Source: Mesorhabditis belari (Eukaryota; Nematoda; Chromadorea; Rhabditida; Rhabditidae). Taken from it: a DNA stretch of 64,000 nucleotides. The notes under the pieces are model-generated. The model did no database searches, was not told the DNA's origin, and saw only the letters and a program-made list of their open reading frames with translations. The stretch is taken from assembly GCA_958450365.1 (NCBI GenBank), contig CAUEEP010000875.1, positions 372,001-436,000 on the forward strand, in the 5' to 3' direction. Positions 8,265-59,463 of this stretch are shown one piece after another (within the stretch, counting starts at the first letter, position 1; each line of letters opens with the position of its first letter). A program made the translations under genes and the position numbers.

Positions 8265-8338
8265 TTTAATTTAGTTTAACAAAATTGGTACAATTGCATT
8301 GTTTTTATTATGAATTTATTATAAATAAATAAAGCATT

Positions 8339-16203: not shown

Positions 16204-16208
16204 CTTTC

Positions 16209-28000: not shown

Positions 28001-29777
28001 TCAAAAAGTAACTCACTCAATTCACTTCAACTAAAGAAATCTCTTATTTTTTACCTCAAGCCCACTATGATTTTATTATCATAGTGGGCTTCAGGCAAAA
28101 AATATTAGATTAAAATAAATCTAATATTAGATTGAGTACTATGTGTTGGTATTTTATTATCATAGTTGGCTTCAGTAATATAGTAAAGTATAGCAATTGA
28201 AATATAGTAAAGTCTCTCAAAAAATTTGGGAAGAATGTATGGCTTGGCTTTTGAGAAATCATCGTGCAAACTTTTTCTACGAACTTTCTTGCCAACCTAA
28301 TAAAATTAAAATAATAAATAATAAAATAAACCTAATATTAGGTTGAGTACTATGTGTTGGTATGACATTTCCATTTTTCTCTGTTAAAACAATTAAAGGC
28401 CTAATTTAGTTACGATTTTCATCAAATAAAAGTTGTTCATTGTCTCATTTTACATCTTTTTGAACAAATTTGAATGCATTTTGAGAAATATTTGAGCAGA
28501 AATTCGTGTTTTCCGAAAATTCGTTAAATGGCCAAAAAAATCAAAACGGCTTGTCAAATTAAGCTGAAATTTTGGTTATAATCGTAACTTTTTATGCTCT
28601 TTCTTTTGTCTTATGACACCAAAATAGGTTTCTTTGGCTAAAAGTGCTCAAATCGTATCATTAGACCTTTTTCTGCTTTTGATCCCTCAACGTTTTGCAT
28701 TCTGAAAAAAAAACCACAAAACGGAAGCATTTCCAAATGCGTTTAAAGCCACTTTTAGAAGATCAATAGAGCTTTTAAATGGTAAAAACTGTAAGTTAAT
28801 TAAAGCACTAGTTGTTTCTAAAAAGAGCAAAGAGTAAGCCATATCAACACAAGCGTACTATGTGTTGATCTGGCAAAGAGTAAGCCATATCTACACAAGC
28901 GTACTATGCATTGATCTGGCAAAGGGTAAGCCATATCAACACAAGCGTACTATGTATTGATCTGGCAAAGAGTAAGCCATATCAACACATAGTACTCAAC
29001 CTAATAGTATGCAGTATGTACAGCTAGTATGCAAACGACTTACAAGTCCGGGCGAGTGAAAACTGGTGGCGGCTGGGGTGCCGGCGGCTCCTTTGTCAAG
29101 AAGAAGAACATCCTAAAATAATATTTTTAAAAATGACAGCTTTGCGAGACAAATCTATGCAAAAGAATAGAATTGTTAAAGAAAAACCAACCTTGATTCC
29201 CCTTTTCGTGAGATGATAGGTGAGCGACGAGCCGGCCACCCCGCTGCCCATCACCACCGCAAAATGGTGTTGCACCGAGGAGTTGCATCTAAAAGACATT
29301 TGAAATTTTGTCCATTTTCAGCTATAAGACAATTAGGGCTTAGATTCAATAGCTTTTTCCACAGACAATCTTTTTTCACAGACACATAGAATTTAAATCT
29401 GTTCTCAGCGTTAAATTCTACGTGCAATTCTGCGTCTAATAGTACTATTCTATCGCAGTATGCAAAAATGTAAGCTGTAAGCTGACAAGTTCCGGAGAAA
29501 TTCTTTCAGGAAAAGATTAACTTAACGAAATTAGATAGAACTAGCACTATTAGGCACAGAATTGCACGTCGACTTTGAATCTAAAATTAGATTAACTAAT
29601 ACTATTAAGCGCAGAATTGCACGTCGAATTTGAATCTAAAATCAGATTGGAAAAATATTGTCTGAGGAAAAAGTTATGATAGTTCAAAGTGGTATACCTT
29701 CTCGTTAAGTGCATCGATGTTCGGGGGGAGTTGAGAATTCCCCCTTTCGATATCAATGACGCCAGGTGTTGAACCAT
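19079..29777 (-). CDS. Mitochondrial dimethylglycine/sarcosine dehydrogenase-family FAD oxidoreductase
   Basis: A 28-exon minus-strand model gives about 860 aa with every junction in phase, the usual size for DMGDH/SARDH. Exon 1 (29698-29777) encodes MVQHLASLISKGGILNSPRT, a likely mitochondrial presequence. Exon 2 (29192-29288) has the FAD-binding GSGVAGSS fold. Exons 3 and 4 (29044-29112, 27179-27268) give SFHSPGLVSASHPAHRYKP, typical of the family. Further exons run down to 20928-21010 (LRLEHG), 20071-20251 (YKIWGRELTLDTNPFECGIG), 19435-19512 (ITSGAYSVRLQ) and the terminal exon 19079-19156. These form the C-terminal GcvT/aminomethyltransferase half that normally binds tetrahydrofolate. Enzymes of this family oxidatively demethylate dimethylglycine or sarcosine in mitochondria. 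I cannot tell DMGDH, SARDH and PDPR apart without alignment. TTACAG at about 29786 could be a cis- or trans-splice acceptor. Confidence 0.88.
20328..20455. mobile_element. Palindromic MITE in dehydrogenase intron
   Basis: Arms CTACCGTAATCTAGCCGCCA and its near-complement at about 20430-20452 enclose a second inverted pair around TTTTGGTATCATTCGAT. A diverged copy lies at 26955-27085. Confidence 0.8.
20527..20878. mobile_element. 350-bp near-perfect palindrome in dehydrogenase intron
   Basis: The left arm begins TCTGTCGCTCCTTTTTACCG and the right arm ends with its reverse complement. Pairing continues through AATTTAAGGTTTTTCTCAGC and CGCGTCGAATGATACCAAAA. It lies in the same intron as the preceding palindrome, between exons at 20251 and 20928. 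Confidence 0.85.
21022..21120. mobile_element. Fragment of TACTTTGTGC-family element
   Basis: GTACTTTGTGCTCCCGCCAT at left and GAGCACAAAGTGCAGCC at right flank a shortened core. It is in the intron just upstream of exon 20928-21010. Confidence 0.55.
21528..21653. mobile_element. Palindromic MITE, ACTCGAATAGAAGAC family
   Basis: Termini TACCGTATTTACTCGAATAG and the exact inverted copy, 126 bp in total. It shares its ends with the long hairpin at 59177-59463, so the two belong to one family. It lies in a dehydrogenase intron. Confidence 0.9.
22756..22885. mobile_element. Palindromic MITE, TACTTTGTGC family, intronic
   Basis: TTCTTTGTGCACAAATCTGG at left and AGCTCAAAGTACAGC at right. The arms pair around GCGCACGGAATTCTTC and GAAGAATTCATTGCGC. 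It lies between exons 22644-22736 and 22916-23087. Confidence 0.65.
24063..24360 (+). mobile_element. Short non-autonomous Helitron
   Basis: It begins TCTACTATATATAAAAGGGG, the classic 5' TC-plus-CTATATATA start of nematode Helitrons, followed by (GTCTGTCT)-type repeats. It ends with a hairpin (about 24312-24352, CCAGCC...GGCTGG arms) and then TGACTAG, matching the hairpin-plus-CTRR 3' terminus. The base before is A as expected; the base after is A rather than the usual T. It has no Rep/helicase. It lies inside a dehydrogenase intron. Confidence 0.8.
24225..24295 (-). pseudogene. tRNA-like segment inside the Helitron
   Basis: On the minus strand GTGGCGCAGTCAGGAGCGC fits Pol III box A and GGGTTCGACTATG nearly fits box B, about 33 nt apart. 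Stem pairing is incomplete, so it is a captured or degraded tRNA-like sequence rather than a functional tRNA. Confidence 0.5.
24708..24926. mobile_element. Imperfect TIR element in dehydrogenase intron
   Basis: AGCTATTCATTTTCTGTCTG at left pairs with CACAGAAAATGAATAGCT at right. The inner arms GAGATTTGACCACTTCAACG are perfectly inverted. 219 bp, no coding. Confidence 0.8.
25122..25741. mobile_element. TIR element with long arms in dehydrogenase intron
   Basis: Outer ends ACAGGGTGACAACAAAATAA and, inverted, ACAGAGTGACGAGAAATAAC. The arms pair for about 200 bp through AAACGATTAATTTCTTTTTT and CAAGATTTCATG. A solo arm is at about 41720-41870. There is no transposase. Confidence 0.8.
26955..27085. 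mobile_element. Diverged palindromic MITE copy
   Basis: Related to 20328-20455: ATAATCTGCCATTTTTCATT and an inverted GGCAGATTATAGT end, with the same CAATTTTGGTATCATTCGAT core. Intronic. Confidence 0.7.
27280..29040. other. Largest dehydrogenase intron: mixed repeats
   Basis: The stretch between exons 3 and 4. It contains a relative of the 3410-3600 arm (27950-28070), segments repeated around AATATTAGATTGAGTACTAT (28110 and 28330), and a tandem block at 28830-29010. A 143-codon frame at 27245-27676 overlaps exon 4 in another frame and looks spurious. Confidence 0.6.
28830..29010. repeat. Tandem repeat of about 60 bp
   Basis: Three to four copies of a unit containing AGTAAGCCATATCAACACAA and GTACTATGTGTTGATCTGGC. 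Each unit is itself partly palindromic (ATCAACAC / GTGTTGAT). Confidence 0.85.
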
Positions 29778-29779
29778 TC

Positions 29780-30355
29780 GAGATCTGTAATGAAAAGCAA
29801 ATCAAAACAAATGAAAAAATCAAGGGAGAGATCAAAAATCGTTTCTGGAAAAATCCGAAAATCGAAAAATCCTAGAGAAGCAAGTCTTCGGGCGGTCTAT
29901 TTCCAACAAAAATAACTCAATAGCGAGATATTTTGAGTCAAGAAAACAGAGATCTGGGAAGTGGAAAAGAATTGTTTATTTATTTTGTGACCCAAGAAAG
30001 AGGGACAAGACGGAAAACGTTAAAAACAAGACGGATCTACCTTATTTCCAAAAGGAAAACAAATCGTTTTCACAAAAGTTCCTACTTTAATTTTGTCATC
30101 AATCAATTGAAACTTTGAAATAGGTAAAACTATTGGTCAAACGTTAGACAATAACAAAATGAGCAACATTTCGAACACCAAACAACAACAATGCCAAAGA
30201 GCCGAGGGCGGCCGGTTTGCGAGGGTTAGAAAAATGAGGTAAGATAAACAAACGGCCCTAGGGCCGCAATCATTCAGCTAATATCAGGGGCAAGGCCTAG
30301 AGTGACAGTGACCAGGCCCTTCCAGAGTACGGCCCCCAGTGTCCCCCTTGCCATT
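29780..30355. other. 5' flank of the dehydrogenase gene
   Basis: No second gene is recognisable here and no clear core promoter motif can be called. A short open frame at 29933-30118 has no recognisable domain. Confidence 0.4.
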
Positions 30356-30545
30356 GTCAATCTACGGTATTTTATCATTTTCTTGCTATCTACTGGATCA
30401 ATTTTTATGATTTTTGTACCATTCGATGCGTAATTTAGTTCTCCATCGAATCATATAAAAATCATAAAAATTGATCGAGTAGATATCGAGAAAATGGGAA
30501 AACACCGTAGATTGCCAATGGCAAGGGGGACACTAGGGGGACACT
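30345..30545. mobile_element. Palindromic element
   Basis: GTCCCCCTTGCCATTGTCAA at left pairs with TTGCCAATGGCAAGGGGGAC at right. The inner arms ACTGGATCAATTTTTATGAT also pair. About 190 bp. Confidence 0.85.
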
Positions 30546-30574
30546 GGGGGAGGGTCGGTACTCTGAAAGTATAC

Positions 30575-30810
30575 TAGAGTATTCCTTGCGAGTAATTACT
30601 CGAGTAAAATCTGCATGAGTAATTTTTACTCGGTCGAATCGACATTTTTTGTCTAATAACTACGAGTAATCCTCTTTACACGTCGAGTAAATTGAATATC
30701 TTTACTTTTGAAGGGAATTTGCCACCAAATCAGTTAAACGGCTGAATATCTTTAAAAGGAGTCGTATATAACTCGGCGCTCAAGATTTTTGCGTCAGTTT
30801 TTCCATTCGT
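30575..30810. repeat. Dispersed repeat, GAGTAATTACTCGAGTAA type
   Basis: It shares two blocks with 63285-63545: GAGTAA-rich sequence, then GGGAATTTGCCACCAAATCA and GCGGCTGAGTATCTTTAAAA-like text. Function unknown. Confidence 0.75.
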
Positions 30811-30892
30811 CCTTTTTCCATTTACGACATTGTTGTGTTTGTTTTGGTTATTTATATTGCACGTTTTGGTTATTTTTCTTACTTTTCTAATA

Positions 30893-31318
30893 ATTTGGGG
30901 GTGGGACAAATGCGACCTTTTTTTTGCGCACCTGGACATTTGCGCACCTTTTTTTTGCTGGAAAAGGCCTTAGGCAAGGCCGTAGAGCTTCGAAAATATT
31001 TCGAAAATACTTCCATATAAGGGAATCGTATGCGTAGATTCCGAATTTCGACAAATCAGACCTCGCTGACACGTCAAATTTGGGCTAAAGGGCAAAAACT
31101 GCGGAAAAGCGTTAAGTTGCGTAGTTTTTGCCTTTTAGTCCAAATTTGACGTGTCAGCGAAATCTGATTTGTCGAAATTCGGAACCTACGCATACGATTC
31201 CCTTCTATGAAAACTTTTTTGAAGCTCTACGACCTTTCCTAAGGCCTTTTCTAGCAAAAAAAAAGGTGCGCAAATGTCCAGGTGCGCAGAAAAAAGGTCG
31301 CATTTGTCCCACTCCCAA
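30893..31318. mobile_element. 426-bp hairpin element
   Basis: Outer arms GTGGGACAAATGCGACCTTT and CGCATTTGTCCCAC. Arms of about 190 bp pair through GGGAATCGTATGCGTAGATT and CTGACACGTCAAATTTGG around a centre near 31108. There are small mismatches only. Confidence 0.9.
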
Positions 31319-31319
31319 T

Positions 31320-32750
31320 AATTTTGATGGTTTTTCTTTAAAGTTAGCATACAGGTACGTGTCTGCGGCGACATCAAAGGAAATCGGCAACAACTTTGGG
31401 TTGGGGGCACTTTTTTTTCTTCAAAACCACTTTTTCTTTCCGTTTCTTTCTTTTTCAGAAAAATCAATGGCTTTTTTTCTGATTTGGGTCCCCCGGAAAA
31501 CCATTTTGCGCTGAATCGGTACTTTAATTTGGTTGACATTTCAATTTCGATTGTACTCTCCATTTCCTAGAGAGTACAATCCATTTCCTAGAGAGTACAA
31601 TCCATTTCCTAGAGAGGCACTTTTTTCTTCAAAACCACTTTTCCTGGGGTACTTTTATGCGTAGATTCCGAAAAACACAACGAGAGCTTCGGAAAAGGCG
31701 TTTTAAGCCGAGTTTCGAGGCTTCAAGGTGCGCGCTCATACAGTGTGATGAGAGGAGTGCACATAGGGAAAAGGTCTAAAAATAGTCTCTCAAAACATTA
31801 TTTTGAAGCCAAAAACACTTCTTCTGGCATAATTTAGCCTACTGATTACATTTCTGATCAAATTGAAGCAAAATAAAAAAGTTTCCAAATTTCGACCATG
31901 GTTCCAATACGGTTCCTATTTTGATCTAATACTTCCAATACGTTCCAATACGGTTCCTATTTTGATCTAATACCTCCAATACGGTCCAATACGGTTCCTA
32001 TTTTGATCTAATACTGTTCCAATACGGTTTCACATGAGTCAAAATCTCAAAAATATTTTTTCGATTTTTTTTTGCCTCTACCAGTCAATTTAAGTTGGAA
32101 AATCATTATTTAATGGTTGGAAATGGTTTGGGCTCTAGTTTTGAACTTGAAAAGTGCCCCAATATTCGGGCGCGCACTTTGAAGCGCTATAGAAGCTTAC
32201 ACTATAGAAGCGCGCACTTTGAAGGCTCAAAACTCGGATTAAAACGCGTTTTCCCTTTAGAACCAAGCCTGACTCAGAAAAATCCGTTTTGAAACATCTT
32301 TGAACCATCTCTGAACCAAATTTTCGTGCCTGAATGGTCAGAAAAGGTCAGAAAATTCTGATGCAAGTTCAATCAACAATCAAATATTTAAAATTGAGCA
32401 ATTTTTGAGAATAGGAGGTCAAATTGAAAGAATAGGAAGAGAATTGGGAAAAGATTGGAGAAAGAAGCTGTTTACTTGCATTGACCCACGAGAAAACGAG
32501 AAAACACCCATCCTTTCAGCTGAGGCAAAAAAAGCGGGGACAACAAGCAGCAAGAGAAGAAAAGAAATGTCATAAAATGCGATCAGAAAAAGAAAATCGC
32601 ATTGTTGTTCGAGAAAAAAGTGGTCTTTTAATTCAAAAATTCGTGTCTAGCACTTCACAGTCATGATCTTGATGAGCAATTGTGGGAAATGAGGATAATT
32701 GTTCATTTGATTCTCGAGTTTTCATTTGATTCAATTCTCGAGTTCAATTT
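31320..32750. other. Non-coding interval with diverged repeats
   Basis: CATTTCCTAGAGAGTACAAT repeats three times at 31560-31610. GTTCCAATACGGTTCCTATT-type repeats at 31895-32030 match the start of the window. No gene is recognised. Confidence 0.5.
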
Positions 32751-32885
32751 CTGATTCAATTTGATTTCAATTTGATTTCAATTTGATTTCAATTTGATTT
32801 CAATTTGTTTTCAATTTGATTTCAATTTGTTTTCAATTTGATTTCAATTTGATTTCAATTTAATTTCAATCTAACTTCAATCTAA
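32750..32885. repeat. (ATTTGATTTCA)n minisatellite
   Basis: About eleven copies of an 11-bp unit with occasional G-to-T changes. Confidence 0.9.
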
Positions 32886-33039
32886 CAAAATTAAGTTCTG
32901 TTTCATTTTTGGGAACATTTTTAGAAATTTTAGACTTAATCCAGTGTCTCTGTTTGGCACACAATTCTGTAAAAGTACTGGTGCACTCTTCACATGGAAA
33001 ATAAAGGATTCAGTGCACCAGAGAGGGTGTGTTTGTACA

Positions 33040-33140
33040 GAAAGAATCCCAACAAAGAATACCAACAAAAAATACCAACAAAGAATAGCGACAAAGAATC
33101 CCAAGAACGAATCCCAACAAACAATCCCAACAAAGAACAA
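33040..33140. repeat. CCAACAAAGAAT minisatellite
   Basis: About seven imperfect 12-13-bp units next to a partial TACTTTGTGC-family core (32970-33035). Sequence to 34190 has no recognised gene. Confidence 0.8.
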
Positions 33141-34179
33141 ATCTTTTTAAACTTAAACTCAACAAAAGAATAGTCATAAATCTAATTCCTTTTAATAAGT
33201 GATAAATCATAATCAAGCCTTTACGCTTTTTAGATTGAGTGAAATTGTTTTGACTCGCCATTTCTCAAGTTTTTCGGCAGTCGAATTGACTTCTGATAAG
33301 AAAAAATGGGAGGGGGGAGAGTCAAATCTCGAGATCAAGAAAGAAAACTCATTGTGGTAGCCAAATTCCTCAATTTACAGCTTATAATGTATACAAATTA
33401 CTGCAATTTAATGTTTTAAAGCTTTAAAGGCTTGACTATGATTTATCACTTATTAAAAGCAATTAGATTTAAAGTTTTAAAGCTTTAAATTGTAGCTATT
33501 GCTTTTCATTACCGTACAGGTTTTAATTTGGATAAAAATCATTCAAAAAAAACTATTTGCTAACTATTAATCATTCAAAATCATTCAAAATCATTCAAAA
33601 AACTATTTGCTAATGTAGTGATGTGAGATTTGAATATCATTTTGAATTGGAAAGGTTTTTAAGGCAAAATTTGAAAACGAAACGAATAGATTTGTTAAAA
33701 TCGATCTTTTACATCAAATAGAGACGCTAAAGAACAAAAATTGCCAAAAAAACAAAATTTACTGTTATTTAAAGTTTTAAACCCTTTGAATAGCAATAAT
33801 TTAAATATATTATGCAAATTTCGATACAATTATAGCTTTAGAACGCCAGAAGAAGGGGTTTATCGGTGAGAATTATGTGTGCAAAAGTTTTGGATGAAAA
33901 AAAATCGAATAGGCGAACGATGAATAAACAACAAAGTCCAAATAAGGGCGATACAGAGAAATGGAGAAACGAAGCCATACAAATGACGCTCGGACAATAA
34001 ACTCGCACAGTATCTCGCCCCAAACGCGAAACAAAGAGCTTTTTTCGGCTATCGACAATGCACAGAATGGCCGAAAATCAAATTTAAGCCAAAAAAAAAT
34101 ATTCTAAATTTGCTTTAGCTTTATTATAACTTTAAATTGAAATTTAAACTTGATTATAATTCTTTTTGTATGGCTGTGT

Positions 34180-34600
34180 ATGACTAGCTGTTTTGGGCGA
34201 GTCGGGCTGAAGCTTCCATGGCCAAGTCGGCAGCGCACTTGTCTACAACTCACACGACCCGGGTTCGACTCCCCCTAGTGCCATTAAGTTTTTGACTTTT
34301 TCAATTTTTCAATATACACCGTCGCCGTGTATGGCTAGCTGTTTTTGGCGACTCGGCTAGATGCTTCCATGGCCAAGTCGGCAGTGCGCTAGGCTACAAG
34401 CCAGACGATCCGGGTTCGACTCCCACTAGTGTCATTAAGTTTTGACTTTTTCAATTTTTGAATGAACACTGTCGCCATGTATGGCTAGCTGTTTTGGGCG
34501 AATCGGCCAGATGCTTCCATGGCCAAGTCGGCAGTGCGCTAGGCCACAAGCCAGACGATCCGGGTTCGACCCCCGTAGTACCCCTACGCCCTCAATTTTC
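34180..34600 (+). repeat. Three tandem tRNA-like units (SINE-like)
   Basis: A unit of about 155 bp is repeated at about 34165, 34325 and 34480. Each carries box A (CCATGGCCAAGTCGGCAG) and box B (CGGGTTCGACTCC), followed by a T-rich tail CTTTTTCAATTTTT. Acceptor stems do not pair, so these are not functional tRNAs. The structure fits a tRNA-derived SINE or an amplified tRNA pseudogene with an intact internal promoter. Confidence 0.75.
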
Positions 34601-34754
34601 TAATCTTTTTTGATTTTAAATCAAAACTATATTAAACCAGCTGCAACCAAGGAGAAATTGTCCATTGTAGTATCGAAAAATTCCCACTTATAACACTAGT
34701 TCGTTTATTTTAAATTGAAGGCTTATGAAAGAATCCTGGTCTTTCAACGGATCG

Positions 34755-35040
34755 TCACACTTTAAAGGCCTATAACTTTGTCTAGAAATCATATTTTGGC
34801 TAACTTTTTCTATCATTAAAAAGAGGAGATTTCAGCCTTTCAAATGATACCAAAAAAGCTTGAATGGATTTTTCATTCCCATACAAACAGCCCTCGAATC
34901 CTCGTCACTTTGAAAGCCGATAACTTTGTCTAGGGATCATATTTTTGCTAACTTTTTCTATCATTGTAAAGAGGACATTTCAGGCTTTCAAATGATACCA
35001 AATAGAGCTTGAATGGATTTTTCATTCAAAGAATTCAGTG
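34755..35040. repeat. Direct repeat of about 150 bp, two copies
   Basis: Both copies contain GCTAACTTTTTCTATCATT and CTTTCAAATGATACCAAA and end in TTGAATGGATTTTTCATTC. The second runs into a partial TACTTTGTGC-family core (AAGAATTCAGTGC). Confidence 0.8.
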
Positions 35041-35398
35041 CATTAGAAAGGTGCGCTTGTGCGCACATTGCTGATTGCTGATTTTCTTTTGCTTTCACTT
35101 TATTTCATGTTCTAAAAAGGTTTTTTGATTAAGCAATCTATAAATTTATCTTTTTCATCATTTCCTACTTCATTCTTTCAATTTCTCAAGCTTTACTTTT
35201 GAATTTGAACCGTTTTTGAATAGTTCAAGCCAAAAAAAATTGAAATCTAATCAAAAATCTCTTTTTTATTATCAAAACAACTTTTTCAGCTTATAACTTT
35301 TCAGAGAAAGAGAGAGAGAAGATTTGGAATTGATGGTGCTTGAATAGAAAGGACAAAGCGCAGGACTAGGATTATGGTTTGTTCAAAAGTTCAAAAAT

Positions 35399-35640
35399 AT
35401 TGGGTTGGTGAATTGAAAACTGCGGGCGATTGTCAGTTTGAGGACTTTCTTCAAAAGAAACCCATTTTGGTGTCAATGGAAAAGTTGTAGAGAATCAAAA
35501 ATCAAGCTTATATCCAAATTTTCAGAACGATTCCAAAACTCGTTTTCAAGAAATGCCAAATTTACGAATTTTCACAAATGAAATGGCGGAAAAGGAGGGG
35601 GAGGGGGGGGGGGGGGTTACGGTATCTGTCTGTCTTTCTG
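35399..35640. mobile_element. Mariner terminus fragment
   Basis: TTGGGTTGGTGAATTGAAAA followed by sequence shared with 705-900 (CCCATTTTGGTGTCAATGGA). It ends near a poly-G run at about 35605-35616. The rest of the element is missing. Confidence 0.7.
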
Positions 35641-35729
35641 TCTGCCTTACTGTAAGGGCATTTTTTCAGCCGTATTTTGACCAATATTTCATTTTGCACC
35701 CTGATTAACCCCCTCGTTCTCCACCCCAT

Positions 35730-35995
35730 TTTAAGATATTTTTATGTGTAATATATCAAAAGATAGCCCTTAATTTCTTCTATCTTTTGGTCTACTACAC
35801 ATAAAAATCTCTCTCAAAATTGAGCTGAGAACGAGGTGTCTAAAGTTGACCCTCATCCTCGACCCCTCGACCAACTTTAAACCCCTCGTTCTCAACCCCA
35901 TTTTGAGATATTTTTATGTGTAATATACCAAAAGATAGAAGAAATTAAGGGCTATCCTTTGGTATATTTTTGAGTCTCACACTTGTCTCACAAAC
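35730..35995. repeat. Hairpin unit H1
   Basis: Inverted arms around TTTTTATGTGTAATATACCA and TGGTATATTACACATAAAAA enclose CTCATCCTCGACCCCTCGAC. A second copy lies at 37101-37379, between exon copies 2 and 3. Confidence 0.75.
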
Positions 35996-36135
35996 AAACC
36001 AAAGTCCTACGAAGAAAGAGGAAGCAGTTTTCAATTGACCAACTTCAATTCAATTCAATTCAATTCACCAATAGCTCTAAAACCAAAAAGCGATATCTCA
36101 ATTATCGTAAATTCCCAAAAAACAAATGATTCCAG

Positions 36136-36236
36136 GCGGCTCTTGGCTTTCACATCGTTGTCACCTTGATCGTGGTCTGCATTCTCTCAAAATGTTCCAC
36201 TCGTTTTTCCCTCGTCAAAGCCTACATCGTGCGTGG
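36136..36236 (+). pseudogene. Extra copy 1 of TMEM161 first exon
   Basis: 101 bp with AG before and GTGAGTG after, encoding ALGFHIVVTLIVVCILSK then CSTRFSLVKAYIVRG. It is open and splice-competent. It differs from the downstream copy (37513-37613) by two third-position changes, both synonymous. It is identical to the inverted copy at 36861-36961. It could serve as an alternative first exon or be a non-functional duplicate. Confidence 0.75.
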
Positions 36237-36413
36237 GTGAGTGAAGGAGAAATCTTGGTTAATACAATATTGTGAATACAATACAAAGACAAAACGACAA
36301 ATCCCTTTTCTACGTTTTCATATTTCAATTTTCAATCTTCAAAAAAGGTTAAAGATCAGAAATTAAGCCGATAATTAAGCCTAAAAGCCTATAATTAAAG
36401 CCGATAATTAACC

Positions 36414-36683
36414 TACCGTAAATACTGTAATAGTACCCCACCCCCATAATGACGGTGCGGAGCGTTGCGTAGTCTAGCTTTGAACGTGTTTTTCTCGACA
36501 CTGGTTTAAGCTACAATGCGGGTTTAGGTATCAAAAAAATAGCCCTGAATTTCAGCTATTTTTTGATACCTAAACCCGCATTGTAGCTTAAACCAGTGTC
36601 GAGAAAAACACGTTCAAAGCTAGACTACGCAACGCTCCGCACCGTCATTATGGGGGTGGGGTACTATTACAGTATTTACGGTA
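36414..36683. mobile_element. Palindromic MITE at the inversion junction
   Basis: A 270-bp, almost perfect hairpin with ends TACCGTAAATACTGTAATAG and centre near 36548. It lies exactly between exon copies 1 and 2. The flanking sequences (36280-36413 and 36684-36815) are themselves reverse complements, so it forms the axis of a larger inverted duplication. Confidence 0.9.
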
Positions 36684-36860
36684 GGTTAATTATCGGCTTT
36701 AATTATAGGCTTTTAGGCTTAATTATCGGCTTAATTTCTGATCTTTAACCTTTTTTGAAGATTGAAAATTGAAATATGAAAACGTAGAAAAGGGATTTGT
36801 CGTTTTGTCTTTGTATTGTATTCACAATATTGTATTAACCAAGATTTCTCCTTCACTCAC

Positions 36861-36961
36861 CCACGCACGATGTAGGCTTTGACGAGGGAAAAACGAGTGG
36901 AACATTTTGAGAGAATGCAGACCACGATCAAGGTGACAACGATGTGAAAGCCAAGAGCCGC
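36861..36961 (-). pseudogene. Extra copy 2 of TMEM161 first exon, inverted
   Basis: The exact reverse complement of 36136-36236, including flanking splice sites. In this orientation it cannot join the downstream TMEM161 exons. Antisense pairing with the other copies is possible. Confidence 0.8.
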
Positions 36962-37100
36962 CTGGAATCATTTGTTTTTTGGGAATTTACGATAATTGAG
37001 ATATCGCTTTTTGGTTTTAGAGCTATTGGTGAATTGAATTGAATTGAATTGAAGTTGGTCAATTGAAAACTGCTTCCTCTTTCTTCGTAGGACTTTGGTT

Positions 37101-37379
37101 TGTTTGTGAGACAAGTGTGAGACTCAAAAATATACCAAAGGATAGCCCTTAATTTCTTCTATCTTTTGGTATATTACACATAAAAATATCTTAAAATGGG
37201 GCTGAGAACGAGGCGTCGAAAGTTGACCCTCATCCTCGACCCCTCGACCAACTTTAAACCCCTCGTTCTCAACCCCATTTTGAGATATTTTTATGTGTAA
37301 TATACCAAAAGATAGAAGAAATTAAGGGCTATCCTTTGGTATATTTTTGAGTCTCACACTTGTCTCACAAACAAACCAA
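37101..37379. repeat. Hairpin unit H1, second copy
   Basis: Same plan as 35730-35995. It marks the second orientation switch (minus to plus) of the exon triplication. Confidence 0.75.
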
Positions 37380-37512
37380 AGTCCTACGAAGAAAGAGGAA
37401 GCAGTTTCAAGCAGTTTCAACTTCAATTCAATTCAATTCAATTCACCAATAGCTCTAAAACCCAAAAGCAATATCTCAATTATCGTAAATTCCCAAAAAC
37501 AAACGATTCCAG

Positions 37513-40500
37513 GCGGCTCTTGGCTTTCACATCGTTGTCACGTTGATCGTGGTGTGCATTCTCTCAAAATGTTCCACTCGTTTTTCCCTCGTCAAAGCCT
37601 ACATCGTGCGTGGGTGAGTGAAGGGAAATCTTGATTTGTTTGTGGTCTCGATACAGCCAATGATGACCATCCAACATGGCCAAAACACTCAAACCATTCA
37701 AAGTAAAAAAAAAAAGCAAAAATGAGGGTCAAACCCCCGGACCTCGAACGCTGAGGAGAAAATCCCACCTCAAATCCCCGCAATACCTTTTTTTTGCTTA
37801 CTCATTTTCGTGTTTTCAATCAATAATAGATAAAGGTAGTGCTTGAAATTTGTGAATTTTTAAAATTTAAATTCTTTTGTAAATTTGTGAATACAATACA
37901 AAGACAAAACGATAAATCCCTTTTTTACGTTTTCATATTTCAATTTTCAATCTTCAAAACAAGGTTAAAGATTAGAAATTAAGCCTATAATTAAGCCTAA
38001 AAGCCTATAACTAAAGCCGATAATTAACCCACCGTAAATACTGTAATTGAACCCCACCCCACCCCACCCCCTCGTACAGTCGCGTAGTCACAAAAGTTTT
38101 TTAGTATTTCATTGTTTTTCAAAGCACCCGTACTTTCCGCCCGTACTTTCAAAAAATGCGTCTTTGGTATCAAAAAATAGCCCTGAATCTCAGCTATTTT
38201 TTGATACCTAAACGAGCGTTGTAGCATAAACCAGTGTCGAGAAAACCTTGTAAAACCAGGCAAGCTTCGAAGTCTCTTTGCGGTGGGGAGCGTTGCGTAG
38301 CCTAGCTTTGGACGAGTTTTTCTCGACACTGGCTTATGCTACAATGCTCGTTTAGGTATCAAAAAATAGCCCTGAATCTCAGCTATTTTTTGATATCTAA
38401 ACGAGCGTTGTAGCATAAACCAGTGTCGAGAAAAACGCGTTTAAAGCTAGACTACGCAATACTCCGGCCGTCATTATGGGGGGTGTACTATTACAGTTTT
38501 TATGCTATTTCAAATGTTATTATAGATTAAAAAGATCAATTTACATATAAATTGTAAAATCAGAAAAGCTTCGAAGTCTCTTTGCGCTTTGCCTTGCAAT
38601 TTTTTTGCGCCAATCATTTACGCAACTAGGTCTTTTGCGCAACTCGCCATAACTTTCTTCTAAGTCGGTCAATCTTTATGATTTTTATGTCATTTTATAG
38701 CCCTCAATCTCAGCTATTTTTTGATATCTAAACGAGCATTGTAGCATAAACCAGTGTCGAGAAAAACTCGTTCAAAGCTAGACTACGCAACGCTCCGCAC
38801 CGTCATTAGGTCTTTTGCGCAACTTCGCATAACTTTCTTCTAAGTCGGCCAATCTTTATGATTTTTATGTCATTTTATAGAGCTCAATAAGTGTAACAAA
38901 ATGACGCAAAAATCATAAAGATTGATCGACTTAAAAGAAAGTTATGGCGAATTGCGCAAATGGAAAGCCCAGTTTCGGACTGTTCTAGGCATTTCCTGTA
39001 TTGATTTCTGTTAATTAGACAACTTTTTAGATTATATCGTTTCGTTGCACCGAGTAACGATGAGTTGCGAGCGCTGATGCCCGGCAAAAAGGAAACAAAA
39101 CCAAGGCAACGTCGGAAACAGAGGTGGGAGCTGGAAAAGAAAGTCGAGTTGTAAAATTTGTAAACACAATGAATCTGGTGCACTTGTTTCTTTGCCAAGG
39201 CACAAAATCGCTCGAAGAAAAGGGGGAAATTTCGTGTACTAGATGAGGAGCAATTTTCGAGCCCAAAGTACTAGCCTAGACTCTCATATCTTTCCTATAT
39301 TGATATAGAAGATGATAAGAGCCATCTCACGACGGTACAGCAGCTCAACGTTGGTTTAGAATGCCTTCTACCCAGCCAAACGTTTGTGTGTTTCCATAAA
39401 AAAAATTTTGAAAGCGGGAGGAGTCGAACCGATCCCTTCAATCTGGCTGCTGTCTAAGAGACTGGCGCGCTAACCACTCGGCCAAGCCCTCCTGATGGTG
39501 GCCTTCTACCCAACGTTTGTGTGTTTCCATAAAAAAAATTTTCAAAATGTGATTTCTAAAAAATCTCGAAACCCGGCCAAGAGTCCAACCCGAGCCCATC
39601 AATCTGGATCCTGCATTAGAGACCAGCGCGCTAACCACTCGGCCATGCCGTCCTGTTGGTCGCCTTTGAGGCGAGCGAGGTAATAACTGCTTGCACCGCA
39701 AAAAGGGTAGGGGTAAGGCCTCGATTTTAACTTCGAATTTTAGAAAAAACGGCTGAGCCAAATAAAAAGTGACAAAAGAAAAAAGTGTTGGATTTCTGGA
39801 GTTTCTGGAGTTGAGGTGTCAGATCCACCGAATCTTGGTGTAGTTTCTGGAGTTGAGGATCCACCAAATTTTGAAAGCGGGAAAGAACTCTGGCAGGGTT
39901 CTTTCCCGGTTTTTATGGAAATGCACAAACGTTGGACTGGGTACTTCTACCTGGTGATAGGTGATAAACCAACGTTGAGCCTGATAAGCTTAAGAAGCCT
40001 GATAAGCCTGAGAAGCCTGATAAGCCTGAGAAGCCTGAGAAGCCTGAGAAGCCTGATAAGCCTGATAAGCCTGGTAAGCCTGAGAAGCCTGAGAAGTACC
40101 GCCGTGAGGTGGCTCTGGCTTAATGGCTTAACACCTTCTTTATCAATATTATCAATAACGAAGATTTTATTTTATCTATTTATTGGGTTGGGGAGAATGA
40201 CTCGGCGCCGAAAATCAAAGAAATTTCTAAAACTTATAGCAGACTTTGTCAAATGATATGCGTTTGATATCCGTAGAAGGGTAACTAATTCTCTACAAAA
40301 TAATATTTAAAAGAGAACTCAAACAGCGCCTCAACTCAACAAAGGATCATTTTTTCACAAAATCGATAAACTGTCATCTAGAGTAAACGGTTGGAGGGAT
40401 CTTCCTGAAAATTTGGTAACTTATGTAATTGAGTGTGCTCTATCTTTTTTATATAAACACCAAAGGAGGTTTATGTGGAAGAAACTGTTCAAGCAATGAG

Positions 40501-43500
40501 TCGGACTTTTTGTCATTTTGATTAGCTGTGTTTGGGAATCCATAAAATCCCAAACAAGAAAAGCTTTGTGGAATCTCTCAAAAGCCATTTTGTAAAGAAA
40601 TAGTGGACCATTTTGATGAAACAAAACGTGTATTTAAAGAAGGTTTTATGGGTGCAAAAAGTTTCTTTAAATTTCGGCGCCGACTCATTCTCCCCAACCC
40701 AATAGATCTTATATTGAAACTTTTGATCGATAAAATCGATAAAATCGAAATTCTATTTGAATTTGAAATTCGAAATTCTATTTCTAGAGAAGAAGAGGAG
40801 ACCGAGGGCTTCAATATTCCGAAAAATTTGCCTCTTCAGTTGAAGATGGCGCCAGTGGAAGAGGTTGAGCTGCAGAATTTCGCTTTCTATTCAAGCGTCT
40901 TCTGGCTTTCACTCTACACACCGCTTGCTTGTTTTGTTTATATGATTAGCGAGGTTTGTGAGAAAAAAAACTGATGCCTGTAACAGGAAAATTAAATGAA
41001 CACAGGAAAAGAGCAGGTATAGGCTTAGGAAAATTTCTGGGTACCCAGAAATCGTCCATTCTTTTTTCCAGACTTTTATCCTTGTTTTTTGTCAATCAAA
41101 ATGATTCATTTCTTTTTTTAGACAAAAATATATATAATTTACTGTATGTACCGTTCTCTCTAATAGTAGTGGACTCTGCTGAGCCGAGTTGATGACTATT
41201 TGATGGCTTTCAAGCTTGCAAAAGCTTGCAAAAGCTTGCAGAAGCTTGCAGAAGCTTGCAGACGCCATCTCCAACACCCCGACAACCCAACTCAACTACT
41301 CCAACGTATTAGAGGGGAGTCCCTGTGAAATGACCGACCTGTACTGCAGTTGCATAGACCCGGAAGATATGTATCTTTATTTATAGTACCTTTAGGTAAT
41401 ACAATAAGGTGAATAGATTACAAATGAGTGTAAGGGGAAGGGGGGACTCCAAATGAGAGTCTCACTTGTCCTCCTTGACAATCCCATTGCCTAGGAGGAC
41501 AAGTGCCTAGGACAAGGACCGTCCCTTCTCGGCAATAAAAGGGATAAGCACAGGGGAGAACACATTTGCATAAGAATAGACAAATCATTCAATAATAACA
41601 ATAATAACAATATAACAATAGTAACTAAAATATCAGTTTGGCTGACAGCTTTCAATTGAACTTTTTTTTTACTTTTTTTTTGACTAACAATTTTTCAACT
41701 TACAAAAAAAAAATTTCTATTAATTTTATGGTGATGAAAACTTGAAGATATACAGAAAATGATGTGAATTTTTGTTTAGAGTAAGAAATGAATGACATTG
41801 ATTGACAAAAACAACAGAAAGATGAGGCTAGAACCGGGAGGACTTTTTCTTGCTAGAAACTTGGCAAATTTTTTTTGGACAATTTTTATCGTTTAATTTT
41901 GTAGATCTGGAAATTCGTTTACCCGGAGAGTCAGGACACAAATGTTTCCGTTTTTTGGCTAATCATTGGAGCCGCCTTCACTTTACAGGTACAGTACTGG
42001 ACAATGAAATATGATATCTGAAAGATCATCATTCAAAAACGATCGTCACTTTCGCGCGTCTGTAACTCCATTGTCTTTGAGTTTAAACTATTAGTGTTAT
42101 ACATTTTCTGAAAGCTCTTTTCAAGGGCTACACAATGGTAATATTAATATTTAGAAATACGGTAAAGACAAAGAAAAAATCGTCGATTCAATCCTCGCTG
42201 AATTCTCTCGATTTGGCTTTCGGTGCAATTGAGCTCAATTTTTCTATAGTAGCTAGTTTAAAAGCTAGCTAGCTAGCTAGCTTTAGAGCTTAAAAAGTAG
42301 ACAGTAATAAGTTAAAAAGTAATTTGGAGAAGGCAGTTGGACAAGGCTGAGAACCAAAAAAATCCGAGTCCGGATCCGAACTCGCCATCTCTCGCTTATC
42401 AAGCGAAAACTCTACCAATTCCTAGCTATCTTTTGGACATAGATAGCTAGAAAGGGCAGAGTCTTATGCCTTATTCCCTTTCCAATCCATTTTTTCATTT
42501 CTTTCAATCGGAAATTAGCAATTGCAATTGCAATTGTTGGCTTAAAATGTTGATAACTTTTGACAGAATGCTCCGTATCAAAAACGGAAACCAGATTCGG
42601 AATCAGCGTGAAATTCTGGATCGAATGGTTTGGATCTTGATCTTGATCTTGATTTAAAAGCTCACCTTTTAAGCCTTTATACGAACAAGAAAAGTTTATG
42701 CACTTTTCTTGTTAATCGAAAAGGAAAAAAACGATTAGATTAGCTATTAGCGAGTGCGAAAAATGCGAAAAATGCGAAAAACGATTGAAAAAGCTAAGAT
42801 TAGCTAAGATAACAATATTCTAGATTCTTGCTCAACTGACTGCTTTCTATTGGACAGCTGATGATGAACGGGGTCTTCTCCTTTCATTCGGCGCTTTATA
42901 CTTTCTCGGATCGGTGATGGTCGCCTTGTGGGCTGATCGCATTCTTGACATAAATCTGCTGAAAGGTTATTAGAGTTATTGTCTATTGATCTAGAGTTTT
43001 TAAAGGCTATAATCTCTAGTCTCTAGTCTCTAGTCTATAGTCTATAGTCTATAGTCTATAGTCTATAGTCTCTAGTCTATAGTCTATAGTCTATAGTCTC
43101 TAGTCTATAGTCTCTAGTCTATAGTCTCTAGTCTAAAGTCTATAGCCTCTAGTCTAAGGTCTATAGTCTACAGTCTCTAGCCTCTAGTCTATAGTCTATA
43201 GCCTCTAGTCTAGTCTCTAGTCTATAGCCTCTAGTCTATAGCCTCTAGTCCATAGCCTCTAGTCCATCATCTATAGTCCATCGTCTTTAAAACTAAACTC
43301 ATTCTATTCAAAATCGTTTAGCCTACGATCATTTCACCGCACAAGCACAGGCGGCTATTTCTCAAGAGAATTCGGGGTCGCCGATTGAAGTGATCAACAA
43401 GAATCCGCTTCTGTTGTATTTGTCATTAGCTGTAGGTTTTTCATTGTAGACGTGTAGACATGTAGGTCGATAATTTCGGGAATTCTATCGTAATCTTTCT

Positions 43501-46500
43501 CTAAATCAATAATCAATAAATAGAAGGTCGATAATTCGAAATTCTATCGTAATCCTTCCCTAGAAAATCAATAATTAGAAATTCTACCGTAATCTTTCCC
43601 CTAAAAAGATCGACAATCTGAAAATTCTTCCCTAACTTTTCCCCTCAAACTTTCTTCAACTGAAATCTTTCTCTCATTCTCTGAAGAATCAAATAATACA
43701 TTTTAAATTGGCTTTAAAATCAAATACGGTTACGGTAGTTTACGATAGAAAGATTACGGTAGAAAGACTACGGTAGAAAGATTAGGTAGAAAGATTACCG
43801 TAGACGGTAGAAAGACTACGGTAGAAAGATTACAGTAGCAAGATAGGTAGAAAGATTACGGTAGAAAGATTACAGTAGAAAGATTACGGTAGCAAGACTA
43901 CAGTAGCAAGACTACGGTAGAAAGACTACGGTAGTTCTCTAAGTCTGGCACATTTTAGAGAAAGACCCCTAGTAACAATAAAAGCTGAAATTCGGCTCAA
44001 ATCTAGACCCTTTTCTCTCTCCTCTCCACGATGCTCGTCTTCCCGAATTTCCGCTACGCCACAATGTACTCTCGAGCGCTGATCGTGGCCGATCCACTCA
44101 ACAAGTTCGTGCTCAAAAACTCAACAAGTTCAAATCACAAATCAGCTAATCAGCTTTTTCAGATTCCTCTTGCACCTTTCCTTTTTGATGCCCTCATTGT
44201 GTTTATTGTTATTTTTGAAGCCAATAAAGTTCTACCTCGTCGACGGTCCGAGGCAATTGTGAGTTGTGAAAAAGATCTTGAGAGCTCTTGCAAACTGAAA
44301 TCCATTTAAACTTGAAATCCAAATTTCTCAGACTCACCGAACCTCAACTCGAAATCCTCCGCGTTTACGTGACAATCGGATCACTATTGTGCAGGTGATA
44401 GACAAGAATTCCAGTAATTAGTTGAATTATGGTAGCTAACAGCGAAAGCTAGCTGTGATTACGGTAGCATTCGAAAGTACGGTAGAAAGTACGGTAGAAA
44501 GTACGGTAGAAAGTACGGTTATCGAGGATTACGGTAGCATTGGGTTATGGCAACAGACACGACGGTGCTAGAGTGTATTTTAAAAAGCATCACGCAAGAG
44601 TAACGCCGTGTTTACCATAATCCAAAGGCTTTATTCAAGCCAGAGCGAAAAAGCAAAGTGGGTTAGGTAGCTGGAAAGATTACAAAGAGTTACAAAGATT
44701 ACGGTAGTTGAGAAGATTATGTAGTTTACATATGGAGGACTACAGGAGGCCTACAGTAGGCTTACGGCTCTGGGCCTACACTAGGCTTACGGCTCTGGGC
44801 CACAGTAAGCTTACGGCTCTGGGCCTAGAGTAGGCTTACGGTAGCTCTCAGATACTGTATCCGGTAGATTACAGTAGTTCAGAGATTACGGTAGCTCTCA
44901 GATACTGTATCTAGTGTATTACAGTAGTTCAGAGCTTACAGTAGCTCTCAGCTACAGTATCTAGTGGATTACAGTAGTTTACAGCTTACAGTAGCTCTCA
45001 GATACCGCCTTTGGTGAATTATAGTAGTTTGAAGGTTACAGTAGCTCTGAGATCTCGTATCTAGTGGATTACGGTAGCTATTAGATACAGTATCTAGTTG
45101 TTTACAGTACTTTGAAGGTTACGGTATTCCTTTTCAGACTTCATCAATTCCTTTTCAGACTCCTCCTCCGGCGTGCTCATCTCCAATCGTTTCTCGATCT
45201 CAGCTACGATAAATTATATCAGCTGCAACGCGAGAGCGGTCACGTGAGAAACGTTCATCTACAGAGTATGGTAAGGTTTCCAAACAAGAATCAAATGAAA
45301 TCAATCTTCTAGATCTATCGATACTATTCCTATCTCTGCGCGGCAGTTGTCCAATATTTGACGCCTGCTTTGCTCTCATTCTTCTTCGCATTGTTGCTTA
45401 AAACGACAGGTTTGCGAGAAAGCTTTTAGTGCAGTTCAGTGCAATTCTTTCGCAACTTTTCGGTTGGGAAAGGATTGCTTTGCATATAGCTGATGAACAC
45501 TACGAAAATGACCAAATGACACTCCAGACATCAGAAAAGATATTTACTATTTGTTCGCGTTACTTCTTCTCACTTTTTAAATCAAATTTTTAATATTTAT
45601 CTATCACAGAGAACGGAGACTCCTTTGACTTAACGGGGATTTATAGTCCGTTTCTGTTAGGAGTTCCGACGATCCTGATAGTGTATTGGTTAACGTCTAC
45701 ATCCGTTTTCACTTATATTCTCGGGGGATCGACTTTTTCGACTGATTTCCGTCGCTTTCCGTCGCTTTCGTCAAATCTCAAAACGAAAAGGAGGCTACGG
45801 GACTCGAACCCGTGTCCTTCGGGGTACTGGTCATCCAGGCACCATGAGGCCTGATCACAGAGAACGGAGACTCCTGTGACTTAACGGGGATTTATAAGCG
45901 CTTTTTCCGAAGGGTTTCCGATGACCCTGGTGGTGTATTGGTTAACGTCTACATCGTTTTCACGTATATGGGTTATGGGGTTCGACTTTTTCGACTGCTT
46001 TCCGTGAAATCTCAAAACGAAAAGGAGACTACGGGACTCGAACCCGTGTCCCCTGGGGTACTAGTCATACGGACACTACCAATACACCATAAGGGCCTAT
46101 CACAGGGAGTGGAGACTCCTTTGACTTAACGGGGATTTATAGTCCTTTTCTGTTAGGGGTTCCGAGGACCCTAGTGGTGTATTGGTAGTGTCTGGATGAC
46201 TAGTACCCCGAGGGATGCGGGTTCGAGTCCCGTAGCCTCCTTTTCGTTTTGAGATTTGACGAAAAGCAGTGGAAAAAGTTGAACCCCCGTGAGTATACGT
46301 GTATTGGTGTATTGGTTAACGTCTACATCCGTTTTCACGTATACTCACCGGAGTTCGACTTTTTCGACTGGTTTCCGTCGCTTTCATCAAATCTCAAAAC
46401 GAAAAGAAGGCTACGGGACTCGAACCCGCATCCTAGTCATCCAGACAGTCATCCAGGGGTACTAGCCATCCAGACACTACCAATACACCATGAGGGCCGT

Positions 46501-47230: not shown

Positions 47231-50200
47231 ATGACAATCGGTGAGTGTCTGATGTACGGGTTGGACTTCGAGGCTCAATCGCTTGTCCCGGTGGTGGCCG
47301 ACGAGGAAAATGTTCGCTTTTTGGTTGGAACGCGCAACATCAAGATGGACAATCAGGTAGAAGAAAAAGAAGGGTTGACAAACGACAAAAGTAGCTCACG
47401 GGACTCGAACCCCAATCCCTCGGCGTGCTAGCTGGTCCGGAGACTACCAATACACCATGGAGACCGTTGATCGCTGCCCTTACGAGCCAGTTTTGTCTGA
47501 GCCCAAGCAACGCAACCCAACGAAAACCCAAACTAAGAAGCAGCTTACGGGACTCGAACCCCGATCCCTCGGCGTGCTAGCTCGTCCGGAGACTACCAAT
47601 ACACCATGGAGACCATTGACCGCTTCCTTTACGAACCAGTTTTCTCTGAGCAGAAGCAACGCAACCCAACGAAAGCCCAAACTAAAAAGTAGCTTCCGGG
47701 ACTCCAACCCCGATCCTTCTCCCTGTTAGCACGTCCGGCGACTACCAATACACCCTGGAAACCGTTTGTCGCTTCCCTTACGAGCCAGTTTTCTCTGAGG
47801 AGAAGCTGATTGTTCAATCTTTTTATCATTCTCAGAATTCCTCAGCTTTTCTAAATCGTTTCCAACACCTGATCCACTTTTGTCGATCTTCAGATCAGCC
47901 TATTGACAGTGAAAAGTGATGATGGAGTGATCAGTGCCCAGTCCTACACACATCCAATCGGTGAGATCTCCGCGTTAGCCGCCAGCCCGAAAGATGCTCA
48001 CATTTTTGCCACAGCTTCATCAGACAGTAAGTGATTAAAGTTTTTCATCGTGAAAATAAATCGGATGACAAAGTATCCGACTAGCTTTCGCATGAAAAAT
48101 GCTAGTTTCTCTAAGCAATTCTGGCGTTTCCTTTCTGGCGTCGATTTCCTCAATTTTTAGCAACGCAAAGGAGAAAATCAAGGGTCGAGATGCGCTAGAA
48201 AGGATACGTTTGGGGATTCAGGCTTAAGCTCAGGCTCAGGCTTAAGCTTAGGCTTAAGCGCAGGCTCAGCCTTAACCTCAGGCTTAAGCTCAGCCTATGC
48301 CTTTGCAAAGTTCTATGCAATTGAAAAGCTTTCCAGACCGTATCCACCCCGCAAAGCACAGCCTCAACATATATCGTTTCGATCACGACCACCAATCACT
48401 CGACGAGCTCTCCACATGCTCTTTCGAGACACCAATTCAAGGGTGATTTTTAGAGTTTATATATGATAAAGAGTGGGGAAATTATCGCCTAGTTTCGGCT
48501 AAAAGAATGACTAAAATAATCGGTTTGAAGCGGAGAACGCACAAGCCATTTAAACTTTAAAAAGTAAAACAAGAACTCAGCCGCTGGACTCAAATCCGGC
48601 GGCCGCCTTTTTTGCTCTTCACCCCGATTGGCCCTGCGCCGATTCTATGCCTGAAAAAACCGCCTTTCAAGCCTGTAAAATGGGCAGAAGTCGTCATTAA
48701 TAATGGCAATTATTTGGAATGAATTGATGGTTTTGTGTTCAATAAATTTTAGTTCAAAGTCCCGCAGTTTTCAATTCACCAACCCAATATCTTAATTCGA
48801 GTGTGCTCTCCTCTACCTGAATAACGCGTTTTCTAAAACGCGAAACTACGATCGATAATGTTTTGGTTTTTTTGGGTTTGGTGTTGTGGGGGGGGGGTTT
48901 GCCAACGGTACTTTTCTTAAATAGATGCATTTTAGAAAACGCCTTAGTCGAGAGGAGCACACTCTAATCTTAATATAACGAAAAATGAATATCTAGATTA
49001 GAATGGAGCGCGCAAAGCGACGAGCTCGCCTGTTTCTCGGCCAACACACTCTACACCCTTTCGGCAGTCGATCGATCAATTACCGTAAGCTGATCGATCA
49101 GCTGATCATCAGCTAGTCATCAGCTAGTCGATCAGCTGATCAGCTAATCGATTAAACTGTCTTCGAGTTGATCGATCAACGGAAATTCGATCAATAAAAG
49201 TCTATGTAAACTAAGAAAAGATTCAGAAAAACTCGACACTTCAACAAAACGGTCGAATCCGTTCGTTGCGCTTCGATCCGCACTCGAATGGTCGAACAAT
49301 TGGACTTTGTGTGGAAAAGGATGTGCTCGGCGTGGAGACACGATCAAAAACGTAAGCATTGAAAAAATCGAGATCTAAAATCGAGATCTAAAAACGAAAT
49401 CTAAAATCAAAATGTCTAAACAATAAGATTTCAAAAGGCTAGGCTACTATTGTCTTTTAAATTACCGTATTCTCTCTAATAATAGTTCATCCTGAGCGTC
49501 GCCTAAATTCCCCTTATCGCTTATCGCTTATCAAAACCGCTTATCAGAACCTATCGATGTGGGGTCGGAAAATGTAGCTGACGATGAGATCTTGACGATG
49601 ATTAGAGGGTTGAGCTTCTGGGGAAACTTAGAAACTATAAAATGGGCATCAACTCGACGGGGTGCATTCGGGAAAAGCCGGTACATGAAAAACACACTTT
49701 TAAATGGCGCACTGAACCCTCCAGGCGCACCGAATGAATTCTAGAGTCATGCAGAAGGAGAAATCTTGGCCTAGGCCTTTTCCTAAGCTTTTCTTTCTCA
49801 TTTCCTACTGATAAAATACCGTATTTTCTCCGATAGTAGTGCGCCCAGAGCGTCGCCTAAATTCCTCGTAATCTCGAGAACCGCTTATCAGAACCTATCA
49901 ATGTGGGGTCGAAAAATGTAGCTGACGATGAGATCTAGTGGGGGATTTGAGTGTTGAGCTTCTGGGAAAGCTTGGAAGCCGTCAAATAGTCATCAACTCG
50001 GCTCGCTTGGGTGCACTACTATTAGAGAAAATACGGTACACAAAAATCTTTTACATCAATTTTGTCATTAGTTTTTCAAAAGTTTTTTTTAAACTTTAAA
50101 ATTTCTAAGCAAAGAAAGAAGAAAGAAAGAAAGAAAGAAAAAAGAAAGAAAGAAAGAAAGAAAGAAAAAAGAAAGAACTAAAATTTCGAAGAGAACTCTA

Positions 50201-58995: not shown

Positions 58996-59176
58996 CTGCG
59001 TCTTGCCCTAAAATAAAACATTAGACAAAAGATCGAATCAAGAAAGAAAACGTGTAATAAACACAAGAAATTCAATTTCCGAATGACAGGAAGTGCGCGA
59101 AAGAAGAAATGAAAGATTCTATCAATTTTCCCGACAAAATCTCTTTGAAAAACACCTTTTCAGCTTAATCACTGAA

Positions 59177-59463
59177 TACCGTATTTCTTCGAATAGAAGA
59201 CCGGGTAAAGAGTATCATAGCGTACTCCTGCGTAGCAGCCCTTTTTAAAATTTCTTTTCTGCATAAAAGCTTTCAATCAAGTGCTATAGAGCTGGAAAAT
59301 GGCTCAAAAGTCTGTTAGCTCATGTGGTATTTTTGAGTCATTCTCCAGCCCTATAGCACTTCATTGAAAGCTTTTATGCAGAAAAGAAATTTTAAAAAGG
59401 GCTGTTACGCAGGAGTACGCTATGATACTCTTTACCCGGTCTTCTATTCGAAGAAATACGGTA
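59177..59463. mobile_element. 287-bp near-perfect hairpin, ACTCGAATAGAAGAC family
   Basis: Ends TACCGTATTTCTTCGAATAG and its reverse complement. The arms of about 130 bp pair almost perfectly through GGGTAAAGAGTATCATAGCG and TGCATAAAAGCTTTCAATCA. It lies between two co-oriented genes. High arm identity suggests a recent insertion. Confidence 0.92.

Follow-up and report, generated by a model that had tools for sequence, protein, structure and literature searches.

Inverted triplications, in which a reversed copy of a segment lies between two forward copies, are described in the literature found for human disease, for cancer and for selected or mutant yeast. The closest known system in size and order is the small inverted triplication (SIT) of rad27 yeast and cancers (PMC13334657), which has the same duplication/inversion/duplication (DUP/INV/DUP) order, a sub-kilobase size and a short spacer, and is ascribed to replication errors. 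Membership of the SIT class also presumes an origin in defective processing of Okazaki fragments (FEN1/Rad27). SIT units average 148/160/148 bp with 6-bp junctions, and 0 events are given for each of three wild-type yeast samples in Table 1 of that paper. Here we describe an inverted triplication of one exon of the TMEM161 gene in the nematode Mesorhabditis belari. The window, which is the whole stretch of 64,000 nucleotides that was analysed, is gap-free and corresponds to positions 372001-436000 of contig C655 (CAUEEP010000875.1) in an assembly of 207.6 Mb and 714 contigs (GCA_958450365.1). The structure is best read, with somewhat more confidence than doubt, as a small inverted triplication that arose when replication switched templates between arms of two hairpin repeats already present in TMEM161.

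Three further systems share parts of this organization. Human PLP1 alleles of the duplication-triplication/inversion-duplication (DUP-TRP/INV-DUP) type have the same inverted middle copy and junctions within inverted repeats, and homology- or homeology-driven template switching was proposed for them (PMC4352052). Origin-dependent inverted-repeat amplification (ODIRA) is defined by an origin inside the segment and by short interrupted repeats (PMC10766183). At yeast SUL1 it yields the same inverted triplication with interrupted inverted repeats and a possible 2:1 mix of homologues, but the repeats are short and the origin lies inside a much larger amplicon (PMC4689423, PMC10766183). Template-switch mutations that perfect hairpins likewise produce reverse-complement copies and homogenization of arms; they concern RNA stems and short repeats, whereas the TMEM161 case has 633-nt arms and a third forward copy (PMC8794818, PMC8604942). 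The gene palindromes of springtails are only a distant parallel (PMC5490193). Unlike SIT, the TMEM161 case measures ~650 bp, belongs to an animal assembly and has both turns in the arms of dispersed hairpin repeats. It differs from the PLP1 disease alleles in that both turns fall in hairpin elements and the repeated unit consists of an exon and the intron sequence on either side. The PLP1 segments are reportedly far larger. The TMEM161 case is a finely mapped variant of a known rearrangement class. A literature search for an inverted triplication in nematodes gave no match, and no comparable case appeared in the related literature among the matches listed (titles and abstract openings); neither result is proof of absence.

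The whole structure spans 2.3 kb and is made of the following features, where H1 and the miniature inverted-repeat transposable element (MITE) are the two hairpin repeats.

35695-36023, plus strand: H1 on the left side of copy 1, with left arm, loop, right arm and flank in their natural arrangement; a member of a dispersed family
35906-36538, plus strand: the 633-nt arm that copy 1 contributes to the exact palindrome, an inverted match to 36559-37191
36136-36236, plus strand: copy 1 of the TMEM161 exon, 101 nt, starting in phase 0 and ending in phase 2, with intact AG/GT sites
36414-36683, no strand assigned: MITE at switch 1, with 125-nt arms that are now perfectly complementary
36539-36558, no strand assigned: loop at the centre of switch 1, 20 nt
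36559-37191, minus strand: copy 2, inverted, identical to copy 1 across 633 nt
36861-36961, minus strand: TMEM161 exon copy 2, inverted and antisense to the gene
37129-37407, plus strand: H1 at switch 2, with a chimeric left arm whose outer part is inverted right arm and whose inner part is natural left arm
37513-37613, plus strand: TMEM161 exon copy 3, which differs from copies 1 and 2 at two synonymous sites; the copy nearest to the exon at 39031-39123
37639-37877, plus strand: insertion found only in copy 3, ~240 bp, partly a dispersed repeat; its edges depend on the alignment
38023-38510, plus strand: MITE region of copy 3, a natural left half and loop followed by an imperfect palindrome (38287-38465, 86%)

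The original prediction of a plus/minus/plus order of the exon holds, and the acceptor, the donor and the reading frame are intact in all three copies. The surroundings of the 101-nt exon were triplicated along with it. Copies 1 and 2 are exact reverse complements around the 20-nt loop, while a second palindrome links copy 2 to copy 3, with arms at 37067-37225 and 37249-37407 that are 97% identical and separated by a 23-nt spacer. The arrangement has the three copies with an inverted middle one and the breakpoint junctions within inverted repeats (MITE and H1) that characterize the DUP-TRP/INV-DUP type. It also has the sub-kilobase DUP/INV/DUP layout with short spacers of SIT, here ~0.65-kb units and spacers of 20 and 23 nt.

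The 633-nt exact inverted arm is the longest among all regions scanned. The longest such arm is 59 nt in the window once the triplication is set aside (for arms no more than 5 kb apart), 304 nt in ten 10-kb stretches elsewhere (arms up to 3 kb apart; stretches taken at round coordinates on seven large contigs, 100 kb in all) and 162 nt in 41 loci, some of them overlapping, around H1-like or insertion-like sequence. A chance origin is excluded because an exact inverted match of 633 nt is not expected at random. Beyond the three copies the exon segment has no match in the assembly (29 of 29 candidates scored).

The first switch had been placed on the 270-bp MITE. The palindrome is indeed centred on the MITE loop, but it reaches far past the element, its exact arms running ~500 nt beyond it. 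That the palindrome is simply the ordinary structure of the MITE was considered and rejected for the switch 1 copy: relatives lack the full palindrome. Those in the window, at 8330-8620 and 8975-9270, are self-complementary over only ~50 nt at the loop and have unlike halves. At other loci, one relative (L064) has inverted ends of 37 nt, two (L065 and L066) are composite, their inverted matches reaching at most 51 columns, and one (L067) matches only one half and the loop. Copy 3 carries a natural MITE left half at the equivalent intron position, and the palindrome that follows it is of the right-half type. Given this palindromic derivative (38287-38465), a hairpin of the MITE type may well predate the event. 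The segment 38023-38960, downstream of exon copy 3, holds composite hairpin elements that include the MITE left half, the right-half palindrome and further inverted units; they suggest repeated fold-back in this TMEM161 intron.

The second switch falls, as had been predicted, in a copy of the H1 hairpin, but the turn lies within an arm and not in the loop. The H1 copy to the left of exon copy 1 is 92% identical over 35695-36023 to its nearest relatives (L007 and L008). An alignment of the junction H1 with this copy and six relatives (L007-L012) places the change point between 37200 and 37202. Up to 37200 the left arm at the junction is inverted right arm, with ATGGGG where copy 1 and the six relatives have ATTGAG, and its sole departure from inverted right arm is a private mismatch at 37192. 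From 37202 on it is natural left arm, reading GCTGAG and then GAGGCGTC, and the loop is in its natural orientation. Such a chimeric arm is the outcome expected if a strand, after copying the right arm in the backward direction, changed over to the homologous left arm.

The events behind the second switch are called unresolved in the SIT paper (PMC13334657). In the TMEM161 case, found in an animal assembly, one turn is located to within a few bases inside a hairpin arm and shows what a second switch can use. H1 belongs to a dispersed family, with at least 151 matches to a query made of H1, exon and MITE (best 40 of 2,995 candidates scored). As H1 and the MITE both have dispersed relatives, hairpin-forming repeats were plausibly in place at both sites before the event.

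In the proposed course, copying would run forward through the exon, turn back in the MITE hairpin and traverse the exon in reverse until it reached the right arm of H1. There the strand would transfer to the left arm, which is homologous, and forward copying would resume. Replication is the presumed maker, and the direction of copying is likewise presumed. Template switching between hairpin arms is preferred because it accounts for both turns and for the chimeric arm. Of the two mechanisms that had been put forward, switching at hairpins is the better supported, and strict ODIRA is not supported, the repeats being too long and the segment too small for it.

In strict ODIRA two closed forks would give a hairpin-capped linear molecule and then an inverted dimer circle, which would integrate, possibly into the other homologue. 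The TMEM161 structure agrees with it in being an inverted triplication whose two junctions both carry interrupted inverted repeats. The 2:1 pattern seen here, with copies 1 and 2 alike and copy 3 different, is the one predicted when a dimer from one homologue integrates into the other (PMC4689423). The repeat arms at TMEM161 do lie within ~100 bp of each other, separated by the 20-nt loop in the MITE and by 23 nt (junction 2) or 91 nt (copy 1) in H1. Published junction repeats nevertheless measure 2-14 bp (PMC10766183), against arms of ~64-125 nt here (natural H1 arms of 64 nt at 92%, MITE arms now of 125 nt), and amplicons have a median of 16.5 kb and contain an origin (PMC4689423), against a segment of ~0.65 kb. 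We regard strict ODIRA as very unlikely at this locus.

The three copies did not diverge evenly. Of the alignment columns, 539 have a letter in each copy. Over these, copies 1 and 2 show no difference (95% upper bound, 0.47%), while copy 3 differs at 29 from copy 1 and at 29 from copy 2. When the 15 columns that adjoin gaps or the alignment end are dropped, 14 isolated substitutions are kept, and every one sets copy 3 apart from copies 1 and 2. Two of the 14 fall within the exon, where copies 3 and 1 differ at two of 101 sites, both third-position and synonymous as previously noted. Beyond substitutions, copy 3 is distinguished by small insertions and deletions, the ~240-bp insertion and a different MITE. 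A 10-nt unit at 37400-37419 stands twice in tandem in copy 3 and once, in near-identical form, in copies 1 and 2, beside a cluster of changes.

Three equal copies that merely drifted since one event would give this pattern with a probability of (1/3)^14, ~2e-7, at equal rates (1.5e-14 with all 29 columns), and this history is rejected. As all 14 changes set copy 3 apart, its split from copies 1 and 2 predates the joining or equalization of those two, which is read as recent. The inverted repeats expected at both junctions are present, but a single event followed only by drift is contradicted by a copy 3 that differs from two identical copies. The likeliest accounts that fit copy 3 are homogenization within the palindrome, a second allele as its source, or an older direct duplicate combined with a younger fold-back. 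Homogenization of inverted-repeat arms is described in yeast (PMC8604942), and a 2:1 homologue pattern is named for ODIRA (PMC4689423).

The last of these accounts would take two steps: an old direct duplication of H1, exon and MITE, which gave copies 1 and 3, and, recently, a turn at the MITE by which copy 1 folded back as far as the H1 belonging to copy 3. It agrees with copies 1 and 3 being diverged and copies 1 and 2 not, and with the natural inner left arm, loop and right arm retained by the H1 at junction 2. The earlier duplication that it requires has, however, no separate trace found, and copies 1 and 3 are identical over 182 nt near the H1 loop, from 35849 within the loop to 36030. 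Such a two-step origin appears improbable beside template switching between hairpin arms.

The chief rival to template switching is an assembly or library artefact in which a fold-back chimera from one haplotype was connected at H1 to the other haplotype. Copies 1 and 2 that match exactly and a copy 3 that differs as another allele would are both consistent with it. The flanks of the triplication, 35600-35704 and 38961-39100, have no second copy in the window, as would be the case for such a join, and artificial palindromes occur in long reads from amplified libraries (PMC6218980). Contigs among the fetched loci, however, reach 9.26 Mb, which is taken to mean long reads, and such reads, if used, should span a structure of only 2.3 kb. 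An artefact would also require two inverted switches plus a return at the correct place, and the fold-backs of one sampled stretch (L059, see below) carry differences, so that not all fold-backs in this assembly are fresh chimeras. The triplication is real in the assembly and probably so in the animal; an artefactual origin is considered unlikely.

Several points still weigh against template switching at hairpins. The structure is known from one assembly of one species, zero differences in 633 bp would also result from a fold-back artefact, and the difference of copy 3 from copies 1 and 2 requires an additional step in any single-event model. Few diagnostic sites define the switch point in H1, and private changes are present in each of the two H1 copies. 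H1-like units elsewhere are often clustered as inverted units, and the hairpins at the turns could partly reflect the abundance of H1.

TMEM161 (PF10268) has a single locus in the assembly, on the plus strand of the window. Its predicted exons, joined with copy 3 of the 101-nt exon, match the Pfam family with 220.8 bits against a cut-off of 27, membership being defined by a score above the cut-off. Six relatives were found, the top one with 54% identity; those named come from Nippostrongylus (two), Haemonchus and Cylicostephanus, which are parasitic nematodes. The 101-nt exon starts in phase 0 and ends in phase 2; the frame carries on into 39031-39123 and from there into 40788-40953. The exons downstream of it are as follows.

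39031-39123, plus strand: next TMEM161 exon, predicted on the basis of homology and splice sites; its phase agrees with that of the 101-nt exon
40788-40953, 41905-41988, 42824-42965 and 43322-43431, plus strand: further predicted TMEM161 exons

The amino terminus of the relatives is MAILGFH in three of the five fetched. The exon in the window starts with AALGFH and has an in-frame stop just upstream, so that the initiating ATG should end an upstream exon. Between 34000 and 37600, GT plus a purine follows just one ATG, a weak candidate at 35333, and a single ATG with a good donor is found in 20000-36135, at 24456. The introns of the gene also contain long tandem arrays of short period, at 43007-43286, 43740-43934 and 44748-45109.

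Exon copies 1 and 3 code for an identical 33-residue peptide. Only one of them is usable in a full-length product because both together would shift the frame. The triplication is probably near neutral selectively, since the two copies encode the same peptide and joining both of them (101 nt each) breaks the frame. A transcript of 35850-37345 is predicted to fold into a single long hairpin (-1236.7 kcal/mol). The predicted hairpin could mask exon copy 1, with copy 3 left for use, or it could feed editing or small-RNA pathways. This sense-antisense-sense exon cassette offers a ready test of how nematodes handle such transcripts.

Fold-backs that involve single-copy DNA are present elsewhere in this genome. 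Two were found in the 100-kb sample, both in the stretch L059. The first (4036-5291) has arms at 4036-4662 and 4671-5291 that align over 627 columns with 13 mismatches and 6 gap columns, around an 8-nt spacer, and each arm carries a tRNA-Asn gene; in the part searched, 4040-4590, the outer 336 nt are confined to the two arms and the inner part is repeated (best 40 of 43 candidates). The second pairs 6911-7113 with 7134-7344 (one mismatch, eight gap columns, 20-nt spacer) and is single-copy (1 of 1 candidates scored). A third forward fragment of 54 nt, identical in sequence, follows 163 nt downstream at 7508-7561 and gives another plus/minus/plus order. The fold-back process may be recurrent in this genome. 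The clustering of both extra fold-backs in L059 is a lead, not a rate; if they are as frequent as this small sample hints, they form a natural series of such events of differing ages.

That palindromes are mostly transposons was also considered. It holds for six of the nine classified by whole-genome search, and the other three involve single-copy DNA. The nine are a subset of the inverted repeats found in the window, the sampled stretches and the loci.

Repeat-family palindromes: L055:7765-7970; L055:6475-6615; L057:1300-1660; L063:1960-2280; window 59176-59320; window 2429-2655
Palindromes involving single-copy DNA: the TMEM161 palindrome of the window; L059:4040-4590; L059:6905-7125

A wider proposal, tentative and rather doubtful, is that hairpin repeats are recurrent turning points of replication in this nematode lineage, and that they give rise to fold-back duplications and inverted triplications of single-copy DNA, including exons, at a frequency sufficient to shape gene structure. 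At TMEM161, pairing of the antisense exon with either sense exon in the pre-mRNA could then decide which of the two is spliced.

Two other tandem arrays of the window, at 34177-34574 and 47379-47806, have periods of 150 and 149 bp. Their consensus is presumably tRNA-like. ARAGORN and Rfam give just one tRNA in the window, at 16208-16291.

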